From Azospira inquinata (GTDB lineage: Bacteria; Pseudomonadota; Gammaproteobacteria; Burkholderiales; Rhodocyclaceae), in NCBI RefSeq assembly GCF_018905915.1, contig NZ_CP064782.1, positions 186,001 to 250,000 of the forward strand: a stretch of DNA of 64,000 bases, read 5' to 3'. Of the stretch, positions 39,682-43,870 are shown one piece after another (the first letter of the stretch is position 1; every line of letters starts with the position of its first letter). The notes under the pieces were generated by a model. It made no database searches. It saw only the letters and a program-made list of their open reading frames with translations, and was not told where the DNA came from. Made by a program: the position numbers and the translations under genes.

Positions 39682-39709
39682 GCGGCTCTTTTTTTCGTCC
39701 TCCATTACC

Positions 39710-42019
39710 ATGCTGCCTCCCATCGAACACCGCATTGCCGAAGAGTTGGGCGTCCGCCCCCAACAGGTTATGGCGGCCGTCGCCCTGCTGGACGAAGGCG
39801 CCACCGTGCCCTTCATCGCCCGCTACCGGAAGGAAGCCACCGGGGGACTGGATGACACCCAGCTGCGCACCCTGGAGGAGCGGCTCACCTATTTGCGGGA
39901 GCTGGAAGAGCGCCGCAAGGCCATCCTTGCCAGTATTGAGGAACAGGGCAAGCTCACCCCGGCCCTGGCCGGGGAAATCAACGCGGCGGACACCAAGCAG
40001 CGCCTGGAAGACCTTTATCTGCCCTACAAGCCCAAGCGCCGCACCAAGGCCCAGATCGCCCGGGAAGCCGGGCTCCAGCCCCTGGCCGACGCCCTGCTGG
40101 CCGATCCGGGCCTGAATCCGGAGGCGGAAGCAGGGGCTTACCTGAATGGGGAAGCGGGTTTTGCCGACATCAAGGCGGTATTGGACGGCGCCCGGCAGAT
40201 TCTCATGGAACGCTTTGCCGAAGATGCGGAACTGCTGGGCCAGCTGCGGGATTACCTGGACGAACACGGGGTGGTGAAATCCACCGTGGTGGAAGGCAAG
40301 GAAACGGAAGGGGCCAAGTTCCGGGACTATTTCGACTTTTCCGAACCTCTGCTGGCCATTCCCTCTCACCGGGCCCTGGCCCTCTTCCGGGGCCGCAATG
40401 AAGGCTTCCTCGGTCTCACCCTGGTGCTAGACAGCGAACTGGACGAAGCCAATAAGCCCAGCGGCCCCAACCCCTGCGAACAGCGCATTGCCAAGCGTTT
40501 CGGCGTCAAGGATCAGGGCCGCCCCGGGGACAAATGGTTGCAGGACACGGTGCGCTGGGCCTGGCGGGTAAAAATGGCCCTGCACCTGGAAACCGAACTC
40601 ATGACCGTGCTCCGGGACAAGGCGGAAGACGAGGCCATCCGGGTCTTCGGGCGCAACCTGAAGGATCTGCTCCTGGCTGCCCCTGCTGGCCATCGGGCCA
40701 CCATGGGCCTGGACCCGGGCATCCGCACCGGGGTCAAGGTGGCGGTGGTGGATAAGACCGGCAAACTCCTGGATACGGCCACCATCTATCCCCATGAACC
40801 CCGCCGGGACTGGGAAGGCTCCCTGGCCGTATTGGGGGCCCTGGTGCAGAAGCACCAGGTGGATTTAATTTCCATCGGCAACGGCACCGCCTCCCGGGAA
40901 ACGGACAAGCTGGCGGGCGATCTGATCAAGCGCCTGGGCCATCCCAACCTGACCAAGGTGGTGGTCTCGGAAGCCGGAGCCTCGGTTTATTCCGCCTCCG
41001 AATTCGCCGCCCGGGAATTCCCCGAGCTGGATGTGTCCCTGCGGGGGGCCGTGTCCATCGCCCGACGCCTCCAGGACCCCCTGGCGGAACTGGTAAAAAT
41101 CGAGCCCAAGGCCATTGGCGTGGGCCAGTACCAGCACGACGTCTCCCAGAGCAAGCTGGCCCGGGCTCTGGACGGGGTGGTGGAAGACTGCGTGAATGGG
41201 GTAGGAGTGGATGTGAATACCGCCTCCATCCCCCTCCTGGCCCGGATTTCCGGCCTTAATCAGAGCCTGGCCAGCAACATCGTCAGCTACCGAGACCAGC
41301 ATGGCGCCTTCCCGGACCGGGCGGCCCTCAAACAGGTGCCCCGCCTGGGAGACAAGACCTTTGAACAGGCCGCCGGCTTCCTCCGGGTGCCCCAGGGGGC
41401 CAATCCCCTGGACGCTTCGGCGGTCCACCCGGAAGCCTATCCGGTGGTGGAGCGCATCCTGGCCGACATTAAAAAGGGCATCAAGGAAGTAATTGGGGAT
41501 GCCCGCCTGATCCAGAGCCTGAATCCGGCCAAATACACGGATGAGCAATTCGGCCTGCCCACGGTCCAGGACATTCTCAAGGAACTGGAAAAACCGGGCC
41601 GGGACCCCCGCCCCGAATTCAAAGCGGCGGTCTTCCGGGAAGGGGTGGAATCCCTGAAAGACCTGGAGCCGGGCATGCTGCTGGAAGGGGTAGTCACCAA
41701 TGTGGCCGCCTTCGGCGCCTTTGTGGATATCGGGGTACACCAGGACGGCCTGGTCCACGTCTCCGCCCTCTCCCACAAATTCGTCAAAGACCCCCACGAG
41801 GTGGTGAAGGCTGGCGACATCGTCAAGGTCAAGGTGCTGGAAGTGGACCTGGACCGGAAGCGGGTCGCCCTCACCATGCGCCTGGACGACGCCCCGGGCA
41901 AAGCCCCCGGCGGCCCCCGGACAGGCGCCCCCCTGTCCGCCAAGGCCCGGCAGCGCACTGAACGCCAGCCCGAGACTCAAGGCGCCATGGCCGCCGCCTT
42001 CGCCAAGCTGCGGCGCTAA
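39710..42019 (+). CDS. tex: Transcription accessory protein Tex
   Basis: A 769-residue RNA-binding protein, close to the usual 770-785. In order: N-terminal helical domain ([47 protein letters not shown]), a YqgF-like domain from about 330 ([16 protein letters not shown], Asp335), helix-hairpin-helix motifs around 490-560, and an S1 domain at about 645-720 ([33 protein letters not shown]). Tex is the bacterial relative of Spt6. The open frame extends upstream to 38351 antisense to the c-di-GMP gene; ATG 39710 is where homology begins. The low-GC cassette begins 61 bases after its stop. Confidence 0.95.
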
Positions 42020-42051: not shown

Positions 42052-42081
42052 ATGATCAAGGTCTACGGTATCAAGGACTGA
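42052..42081 (+). pseudogene. Displaced 5' remnant of the ArsC-family gene
   Basis: ATG-initiated reading frame MIKVYGIKD followed directly by TGA. This is the normal N-terminus of the ArsC/Spx-like YffB family, whose next residues would be CDTMKKA. It has AGAGAA upstream. The intact downstream gene at 42542 carries the same motif as LWGIKNCDTMKKA. I read this as the original gene start, cut off by the inserted segment. Confidence 0.7.
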
Positions 42082-42624
42082 ATAACGATATTAAATATGA
42101 GTCGACCGGACATCTAAGATATACCCGCCAATGAGGACATTCTTCTTACTCCTAATGTTGATGTTAGCGATTGCCCTTTTAGCTCCACCGATCATTCTGT
42201 GGAAACGGGAGGAAACGCTGTCATGGAGCAAGAGGTATCTTCTGTCGATTATTCCCCTTGGCTACACATTCATCGGATGGAAGCTTGGCGCATACGGTTA
42301 TGGCAATCTTGCGTGCCAAGGCAATCCCAAACGCTTTCATGACTGCATTCTCTGGGGCTTTGACCTCACAGCGATCGTCGATTACGGACTGTTTTTAATG
42401 ATGCCCTGCCTGCTTTTCGCTCTTCCCCTCTCGTTATGGCTATCACTGGATACTGCCCTAAAACAGTTGGGCGCCTGGCACAAGAAAAACTATCCGGATC
42501 AAACCTCTCATAACGAATAACACCTCAGTTAATAAACGATCATGACGAATGCCCCCCTCACTGCCACATCCAGCAGCCAAGAAAAAAACCTTAAGAACGT
42601 GCGTCTTTGGGGAATTAAGAACTG
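42081..42624. mobile_element. Low-GC inserted cassette bounded by gene-derived near-repeats
   Basis: A 544-bp segment inserted between GGTATCAAGGACTG (42067-42080) and GGAATTAAGAACTG (42611-42624). The near-direct repeats encode the same GIK(D/N)C stretch. Composition drops sharply at 42081 and returns to the GC-rich background right after 42624. The cassette carries one small membrane-protein gene and a new 5' end for the target gene, but no recombinase. It may have arrived by homologous or site-specific recombination within the conserved codons. Confidence 0.6.
42131..42520 (+). CDS. Small membrane protein carried by the cassette
   Basis: A 129-residue protein with a hydrophobic N-terminal helix (about 4-23), a middle segment (about 35-55) and a C-terminal pair (about 82-110). 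NLACQGNPKRFHDCILWGFDLTAIVDYGLFLMMPCLL includes two Cys likely facing one side of the membrane. The codon use is AT-rich, unlike both neighbours. No Shine-Dalgarno is evident before ATG 42131. I recognise no family. It could be cargo such as an immunity or phage-exclusion protein, but nothing in the sequence shows this. Confidence 0.65.
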   Translation: MRTFFLLLMLMLAIALLAPPIILWKREETLSWSKRYLLSIIPLGYTFIGWKLGAYGYGNLACQGNPKRFHDCILWGFDLTAIVDYGLFLMMPCLLFALPLSLWLSLDTALKQLGAWHKKNYPDQTSHNE

Positions 42625-42940
42625 CGACACCATGAAAAAGGCCTTTGCCTGGCTCACGGGAAACGGTGTGGCTTACGAATTCACGGACTACAAGAAGGCC
42701 GGGGTGGCCGCCGCCAAATTGCCGGAGTGGACGGCCAAGGCGGGTTGGGAAACCCTGCTTAATACCAAGGGGCTGATGTGGCGCAAGCTCTCTCCGGAAC
42801 AGAAGACGGATGTGGATGAAGCCAAGGCCTTGAGCCTCATGGCCGAATACCCCAGCCTTATCAAGCGCCCCGTGCTGGAAGTGGGAGACCGGCTGCTGGT
42901 GGGCTTTTCCCCGGATACCTACCAAAGCCTGCTGAAATAA
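42542..42940 (+). CDS. ArsC/Spx-like (YffB family) reductase with replaced N-terminus
   Basis: A 132-residue thioredoxin-fold protein of the ArsC/YffB family. LWGIKNCDTMKKAFAWL carries the single active Cys28. YEFTDYKKAG, GWETLLNTKGLMWRKL and LIKRPVLEVGDRLLVGF complete the domain. Relatives are glutathione-dependent reductases of unclear substrate, not proven arsenate reductases. The first 22 residues (MTNAPLTATSSSQEKN and following) come from low-GC sequence and are an added leader; the older start is the remnant at 42052. The gene body is GC-rich and intact. Confidence 0.88.
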   Translation: MTNAPLTATSSSQEKNLKNVRLWGIKNCDTMKKAFAWLTGNGVAYEFTDYKKAGVAAAKLPEWTAKAGWETLLNTKGLMWRKLSPEQKTDVDEAKALSLMAEYPSLIKRPVLEVGDRLLVGFSPDTYQSLLK

Positions 42941-43000: not shown

Positions 43001-43870
43001 ATGGCCGACACCATTCACCGTTTTCTCTTTGACGACCTGGATATCCGGGGCGCCCTGGTGCACCTGGACCAGGCCTGGCAGCAGATGCAGGAAGGCCGGG
43101 GCTACGGCCCGGTCACCGCTTCCCTCCTGGGCCAGATGACCGCCATTACGGCGGTCATCGCAGGCCAGTTGAAACAGGCGGGGCGCCTCACCTTCCAGCT
43201 CCGGGGCAACGGCCCCATCGCCATGCTGGTCATCGATTGCAACGAACGGCTGGAACTGCGGGGCATGGCCCGCAGCCGGGAGGGGGAAGATCCCCGCCCC
43301 GCCCCCCTGCCCGACCTACTCGGCCACGGCCAGCTTATGCTCAGCCTGGACGCGGCCCAGGCCCGGGATACCTATCAGAGCTTTGTGCCCCTGGAAGGGG
43401 ACAGCCTGGCCCAGGTCTTTGAACACTATCTAGCCCTTTCGGAACAGCAGCCCTCCCGTCTGGTGCTGGCAGCGGATGGCCGGACGGCAGCGGGCCTTTT
43501 CCTGCAAAAACTTCCCGAAGCGGACCAGCGGGATCCGGATGGCTGGAACCGGGTTACCCAGTTCCTGGACACCCTGACGGAAGACGAACTCCTGACCCTG
43601 GCCCCGGAACAGATCCTCACCCGGCTTTTCCACGAGGAAACCCTGCGCCTCTTCGATCCCCGGGAAGTCACCTACTGCTGCCCGGAAGACTGGGAAAAGG
43701 TGCGCACCATGCTCCGCTCCCTGGGCCGAGAGGAAGTGGAAGCCATTCTGGCGGAACATGGGGAAGTGGTGATTCAGGACGAAATCTGCAATCGGGAATA
43801 TCGTTTCGACCCCATTGCGGTGGCCGAACTGTTCGCCGCCCCGCTGACCAGCGGCCCCACCTATCACTAA
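43001..43870 (+). CDS. hslO: Hsp33-like chaperone HslO with degenerate redox switch
   Basis: A 289-residue protein matching Hsp33, the redox-activated holdase: HRFLFDDLDIRGALVHLDQAW, GQMTAITAVIAGQLKQAGRLTFQLRGNGPI and the C-terminal REYRFDPIAVAELF. Canonical Hsp33 uses CxC and CxxC to bind zinc. Here the first pair is the adjacent Cys226-Cys227, followed by a two-residue-longer loop. The second is Asp260-E-I-Cys263, so one Cys is replaced by Asp. Only three Cys remain, and the switch may be altered or lost. It starts 60 bases after the ArsC-like gene. Confidence 0.9.
   Translation: MADTIHRFLFDDLDIRGALVHLDQAWQQMQEGRGYGPVTASLLGQMTAITAVIAGQLKQAGRLTFQLRGNGPIAMLVIDCNERLELRGMARSREGEDPRPAPLPDLLGHGQLMLSLDAAQARDTYQSFVPLEGDSLAQVFEHYLALSEQQPSRLVLAADGRTAAGLFLQKLPEADQRDPDGWNRVTQFLDTLTEDELLTLAPEQILTRLFHEETLRLFDPREVTYCCPEDWEKVRTMLRSLGREEVEAILAEHGEVVIQDEICNREYRFDPIAVAELFAAPLTSGPTYH

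Follow-up and report, generated by a model that had tools for sequence, protein, structure and literature searches.

The arsC/yffB-like gene of the window (the whole stretch of 64,000 nucleotides analysed, from Azospira inquinata) is split by a 544-bp insert that also rebuilds its 5′ end, and a scan of 104 arsC loci shows inserts of this kind at eight, the window's included, which by the labels given represent four genera. We propose that they form a family of tiny (101–715 bp) integrative cassettes which enter the AAGAACTG block of arsC/yffB-like genes by site-specific recombination, a reading to which we assign a probability of roughly 0.6; an enzyme acting in trans, a circular form and mobility of the cassettes are parts of this proposal that we infer. 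The first-pass annotation of the window had guessed at a cassette family aimed at this codon block, and the eight carriers, with four unrelated cargos and one cargo-free insert, support that guess.

In the window, all the features of the locus lie on the plus strand. The gene 5′ of arsC is tex (39686–42019), recognized by its Pfam Tex domains and adjacent to arsC in empty relatives as well. It is followed by the remnant of the native arsC start (42052–42081), which encodes MIKVYGIKD and then a TGA; as had been expected of an arsC N-terminus, it aligns with the functional starts of G002 and others. The remnant codons are ATG-ATC-AAG-GTC-TAC-GGT-ATC-AAG-GAC-TGA, also readable as ATG...AAGGACTGA, and the insert, which splits the YffB/ArsC-family gene directly 3′ of AAGGACTG, creates the in-frame TGA with its first base. 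The cassette itself (42081–42624, 46.5% GC) was delimited by empty-site comparison and composition, and its 544 bp equal the distance between the two ACTGs. An attL-like left core copy, GGTATCAAGGACTG, occupies 42067–42080, and the conserved left end, AATAACGATATTAAATATG (42081–42099), is near-identical in six other carriers. From a conserved ATG runs a mini-ORF of six codons, MSRPDI (42097–42117), before cargo A (42131–42520), an ORF of 129 amino acids with two strongly hydrophobic stretches which the family searches assigned to no known family. The right end (42521–42610) comprises a spacer, a new start codon at 42542 and the leader MTNAPLTATSSSQEKNLKNVRLW, and differs from the native starts of relatives; the attR-like right core copy, GGAATTAAGAACTG (42611–42624), encodes GIKN. 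The rebuilt gene (42542–42940, 132 amino acids) is followed by hslO (Hsp33; 43001–43870, Pfam HSP33). It scores above the cut-off against Pfam ArsC (PF03960, 9.6e-22) and against TIGR01617 of the Spx/MgsR group (95.4 bits, cut-off 75.05), and falls one short of the 121 cut-off of NF008107, 'ArsC family reductase', at 120.1 bits. The family profile match and the GIKNC block, which had been noted as GIK-N-C in the intact copy, identify it as ArsC/YffB (Spx-like), and it is the one arsC/yffB-like match at E 0.001 or better in the window genome. Between 41900 and 43050 no sigma-70-like match was found on either strand, and there was one terminator-like match, on the minus strand.

Composition alone is weak evidence for an insertion, because about 1% of the 544-bp stretches of the window, which is 64.1% GC overall, have 47.4% GC or less. 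The observation goes beyond chance because the empty sites of relatives join here and because a left-end pattern matched nowhere but at arsC starts in 199 family genomes. In several relatives tex runs directly into an unbroken arsC. Carriers were compared with empty relatives by scoring the left 60 nt and the right 60 nt separately, and for five carriers there were near relatives, in which the site proved unbroken at one position. G136 matched empty G813 at 59/60 left and 57/60 right; G316 matched G263 at 60/60 and 50/60; G787 matched G789 at 44/60 (29 of the last 30) and 60/60; G166 matched G132 at 46/60 (29 of the last 30) and 56/60; and the window genome matched G002 at 34/60 (26 of the last 30) and 48/60. 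More distant relatives had to serve for G400, G032 and G832; over the last 30 left positions they gave at most 26, 21 and 23 matches respectively. When all carriers are combined, the stretch of exchange narrows to about AAGAACTG, just 5′ of the catalytic Cys codon. The empty-site comparison that the first-pass annotation had called for thus returned unbroken sites joining at these codons (G813 for G136, G263 for G316, G002 for the window), and its account of a 544-bp low-GC insert that splits and rebuilds an ArsC-family gene holds in all its coordinates. A GC-matched insert lacking a remnant, which it had named as counting against that account, was not encountered: in each of the seven carriers for which the two were compared, GC is lower in the insert (0.33–0.48) than in the flanks (0.51–0.69), and the G832 insert has a GC content of 0.45. 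In G001, a genome of the window's genus (L004:1468–1848), no tex lies within 1.5 kb upstream of arsC, another gene standing there instead, and the gene begins with its own, longer leader in the case of arsC.

The 104 loci were scanned by script over about 1.6 kb upstream of arsC for a remnant or a left end, a scan that long or fully decayed inserts escape and that had less than 1.1 kb of upstream sequence in L138, L157, L182, L125 and L129. The carriers are the window genome (G000), G032, G400, G832, G136, G316, G787 and G166. Five of them (G136, G316, G787, G400 and G832) belong to an Azonexus-like genus in which 69 of 76 genomes have the main arsC match, all 69 loci having been scanned; in the genus of G166 one of five arsC loci has a cassette, and among the 52 genomes matched in the arsC search that included G000, 30 loci were scanned and two carriers, G000 and G032, were found. 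The G316 locus is identical to that of Azonexus hydrophilus ZS02 over 2,392 bases and the G787 locus to that of A. hydrophilus DSM 23864 over 2,800 bases, while G032 (Candidatus Accumulibacter sp. 66-26, of another genus) has the same layout with a different cargo. A chance rearrangement, that is, a duplicated arsC start or an insertion private to the window genome, would have been a fair reading of one genome alone; it is refuted by the seven other carriers at the same position, and we give it next to no weight.

Searches beyond the arsC loci point to the same site. A 23-nt left-end pattern, ACTGARTARCGATATTRAATATG, allowing up to three mismatches, occurred in three of 199 family genomes, every match lying at an arsC start, and its reversed control had no match in the same genomes; it missed one carrier in this sample, G166, which has an extra base in its left end. 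An exact left-end scan of GTDB 220 species genomes gave three loci, those of Candidatus Accumulibacter sp. 66-26 and of A. hydrophilus DSM 23864 and ZS02. A junction pattern (truncated start, then A or G) matched nine of 395 family genomes, four being carriers (G136, G316, G400 and G166) and five unrelated; the matches had to be sorted by reading because the reversed control matched seven genomes of this sample. Six carriers belong to this sample, G787 and G832 lying outside it, and the pattern overlooked two of them, the window genome and G032, whose remnants are altered; it revealed no new carrier in 389 genomes of the order. At L138 (G814) a C-type-like right end, TCGTGCTATGGCATCAAGAACTG, is preceded by sequence unlike that of relatives up to the contig end, 348 bases 5′ of the core; G814 may be a ninth carrier.

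The cassettes share a frame and differ in what it holds. Insert lengths are 544 bp for type A (window), 514, 514 and 513 bp for type B (G032, G400 and G832), 704 and 715 bp for type C (G136 and G316), 550 bp for type D (G787) and 101 bp for the cargo-free insert of G166. The 20-nt left end, AGTAACGATATTAAATATGG, has zero to two differences (at least 18/20 identical) in six carriers, matches but for one extra base in G166 and is decayed in G832. The first base of the cassette turns the Cys codon TGC into TGA in seven of the eight carriers, G832 reading GGG, and in each of those seven an ATG follows 15–16 nt after the TGA and starts either the cargo or a mini-ORF before it. Read by eye, this ATG opens cargo B or D directly and elsewhere a mini-ORF of two (G166), six (A) or 16 (C) codons. 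The 14-bp core is present at both ends, with zero to three differences in seven carriers and more in G832. Right ends vary in length and leader, yet all encode a leader running into (Y/W/F)GIKNC, and in all eight carriers the arsC N-terminus is replaced in frame by a new start and GIKNC. The right ends of G136, G316 and G166 each contain an inverted repeat of the left end, (A)CGATATTAAATAT, that exceeded all 100 shuffles; the 7-nt match of G787 was equalled by 12 of 100 shuffles and the other four carriers showed nothing, which leaves five of the eight cassettes without a significant repeat. The G166 insert folds as one nested hairpin, a fold only modestly better than those of shuffled sequences, 12 of 200 of which did as well (z −2.0). 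Another short motif, C(C/T)GGACATCTAA or CTGGACATCTAA, occurs immediately 5′ of the cargo in the window (42106–42117) and in G316 (L047:1544–1555) and halfway along the insert of G166, which has no cargo (L040, reverse complement, near 1590); by eye, GGACATCTAA closes the mini-ORF of the window, and the motif recurs in the left part of the inserts of G316 and G166.

The longest open frames in the inserts are the cargos, with 178 codons at most. The first-pass annotation saw no recombinase in the window insert, where the longest frame is the 129-residue cargo, and the same is true of every insert: none was found in any of them, with no room for one beside the cargo, and none could be tied to the arsC site. 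One explanation for this is that full elements with an integrase entered arsC repeatedly and that deletions left the ends and one gene, the cassettes themselves being immobile. Elements of this kind, CIMEs, have by definition lost their integration and transfer genes and keep attL and attR, according to the part of PMC5704250 drawn on here, and the 101-bp insert of G166 resembles ends only. Remnants are altered in the window genome, G032 and G832, which would also fit, and because of this the cassettes of these three carriers may no longer be mobile. However, independent deletions are not expected to give one compact layout, and type B measures 513–514 bp in three genomes from two genera, in all of which the left end runs straight into the cargo ATG, while type C measures 704 and 715 bp in two. 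No full-size element appeared among the junction-pattern matches in the 395 family and 389 order genomes, a weak test, since the pattern requires an unaltered remnant with A or G after it and overlooked two of the six family-sample carriers. We regard such relics as an unlikely source of the family, although one to be kept in view, and prefer integrative cassettes.

The number of insertions bears on another alternative, in which one ancient insertion was inherited vertically and lost many times, its cargo being swapped by homologous recombination. A tree built from 80 arsC sequences (315 columns) needs eight changes to account for the eight carriers, at least seven of which are forced by well-supported branches; it draws on a single short gene, leaves forks open and places the window's gene on a long branch. 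Shuffled carrier labels need 7.8 changes on average, a scatter no different from that observed, which could reflect gains or losses. The divergence of the cassettes tracks that of arsC, as a single old insertion would predict: B-type pairs have cassette and arsC identities of 73.6 and 75.6%, 72.9 and 70.6%, and 72.3 and 76.0%, and in the C-type pair (G136 and G316), where the cassettes differ by 25%, the values are 74.9 and 81.9%, the cassettes being more different than arsC. Identity is therefore no proof of recent transfer, because paired cassettes are as different as their arsC genes or more so. The left remnants tell against the old insertion. Those of G316 and G136 no longer start a whole gene, yet they are 60/60 and 59/60 identical to the functional starts of empty relatives, and for this reason these two insertions look recent. 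The eight changes needed for eight carriers, and the differences among carriers in upstream genes and native arsC starts, likewise argue against a single event, which we consider improbable.

The four cargo types are mutually unrelated (best between-type E-value 1.6), and among arsC loci each occurs only in its own carriers, always in the orientation of arsC (7/7). Searches of cargos A, B, C and D against Pfam and NCBIfam gave no family above its cut-off, and the AlphaFold models of A and B (mean pLDDT 49.8 and 52.8) were set aside. Among 5.8 billion proteins, five, six and three relatives at E 0.001 or better were found for A, C and D respectively; the first of these for A (99%) and for C (100%) is the cargo protein itself or nearly so. 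The first-pass annotation had suggested looking for the window membrane protein beside other ArsC-family gene starts; tblastn over the other arsC loci did not find it there, those sites holding other cargos. Cargo A was present in three of 61 genomes, namely its own, G002 and G001, in the latter two away from arsC, and a genome-contig scan with it found no relative. Cargo B occurred in eight of 249 family genomes; one of the matches, in G170 (L265:1400–1990), is a close relative that lies away from arsC, and short CGATAT and ATCAATATCG stretches on either side of it are weakly like cassette ends. On viral contigs, pattern scans and protein scans (the latter with C and A only) gave nothing relevant, one pattern that fitted the G166 end alone, like another used on genomes of the order, being no evidence, as it held an extra base relative to the other carriers; plasmids and phages searched with the G166 ends matched only at ordinary arsC starts, and plasmids had no match for B or for the window cassette. 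Nine plasmids hold relatives of cargo C at about 27–33% identity, and the three surroundings inspected were uninformative.

Cargo D was found in three of 76 genomes: its own carrier, G827 and G277. In G827 (L263, reverse complement, 1300–1910) a distant relative lies behind GGCGTTAGGT, between accD and folC, and by eye we take it to be comparable to a lone integron cassette at a secondary site; in G277 the relative presumably stands behind an attC-like stretch, again by eye. Part of the cargo may stem from the integron pool. These apparent integron surroundings raise the possibility that the inserts are themselves integron cassettes put into arsC by an integron integrase at a secondary site. 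By eye, TAAC forms the stops of cargos A, C, C′ and D, and GCCTAAC...GTTAGCA occurs in the G166 insert, both of which resemble attC ends. A direct search found IntI-like genes in all eight carriers; six of these are complete, whereas those of the window genome and G787 lack an inner stretch. In the window genome (L256:18182–18726) about 150 inner residues are missing, with a similar gap in G787, and G166 has an integrase gene about 3.5 kb 3′ of arsC with no visible link to the cassette. However, an integron integrase scores above the curated cut-off in 48 of the 76 genomes of the Azonexus-like genus, so its presence in all five carriers there is not significant (0.09). Integron insertion has the boundary G/TTRRRY, which neither junction shows by eye; nor does inspection by eye reveal a full attC between cargo and arsC, and an integron cassette would not bring an ArsC N-terminus. 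We find this origin very improbable for the inserts as a whole. Genome-wide, the eight carriers have 77 tyrosine-recombinase matches, none linked to a cassette; 30 of the 77 were sorted into groups, some of them translated in a wrong frame. Two groups cover seven of the eight genomes and one covers five, and we assume that the former are XerC and XerD and the latter the integron integrase.

We propose that an integrative cassette acts on arsC as follows. Comparison with empty relatives shows that the gene is split between the GIKN and catalytic Cys codons, leaving the native start on the left and the body on the right. The first base of the cassette closes the truncated frame by making the Cys codon TGA, as read in seven of eight carriers, and the right end supplies a new start with the first-strand and GIKN codons; because it carries all three, arsC is complete again. 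The cargo would be read from the host operon, perhaps through translational re-initiation after the leader stop. A recombinase would be supplied in trans, because no cassette encodes one, and the cassette may travel as a circle with the core between its two ends, the joint of which would read right end, core and AGTAACGATATT. Separately, a YffB/ArsC gene with TGA at the catalytic Cys codon, open on both sides, occurs in four genomes of two other families (G041, L016:1501–1875; G559, G650 and G522, in L233, L234 and L235 near 1500); judged from these sequences it looks like selenocysteine, and a model for an ArsC-type (seleno)protein exists (NF041106).

If the cassettes move, they offer a route of single-gene capture for which about 20 bp at the left end and a substitute start at the right end suffice, and by which an operon can be entered without being broken; small low-GC 'hypothetical' genes before conserved genes would then be recognizable as cassettes wherever the start of the next gene is repeated in a stop-truncated copy. 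Two strains named A. hydrophilus with different cassettes at one site provide a direct experimental entry. The family could conceivably be a second, non-integron system of gene-cassette capture, in which single genes between fixed ends enter one housekeeping codon block by a trans-acting recombinase and the target is rebuilt each time, so that insertion costs little, but this broader idea is offered tentatively and is on balance doubtful. A search of the literature on integrative elements at arsC/yffB, on integrase-less cassettes and on these hosts, with most subscription journals outside it, did not find the arrangement.

The closest known kinds are CIMEs and the dusA islands that supply a new N-terminus. 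In the part of PMC8409611 used here, the dusA island IMEVchUSA3 disrupts dusA yet provides a new promoter and restores the frame. Both dusA islands and arsC cassettes target a conserved protein gene at its 5′ end and give it a frame-restoring N-terminus. The island, as described there, has an integrase, a directionality factor, mobilization by IncC plasmids and a promoter, whereas the arsC cassettes measure 101–715 bp and have no recombinase, and that of the window has no sigma-70-like match. With CIMEs they share att-like ends and the absence of integration and transfer genes; but CIMEs, in the portion of PMC5704250 consulted, are decay products of ICEs or IMEs, whereas the arsC cassettes have no parent that we could find and exchange cargo in a fixed, compact frame. 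Like integron gene cassettes, as characterized in the relevant part of PMC2426708, they are small units with swappable cargo, and their hosts often have an integron integrase; they differ in their fixed target, in end sequences flanking the cargo, in the rebuilt host gene and in having no full attC by eye. The strand-biased circularizing elements (SE) bear a likeness in their imperfect terminal inverted repeats of 13–19 bp, but in the sections of PMC10214605 on which we draw they encode two tyrosine recombinases (intA/intB) and have a 6-bp spacer at the joint, whereas the arsC cassettes have no recombinase and about 25 bp would separate their repeats. We place the arsC cassettes among the integrative elements that bring a new 5′ end to their target gene, where they are unusual in being very small, in lacking a recombinase and in carrying exchangeable single-gene cargo.
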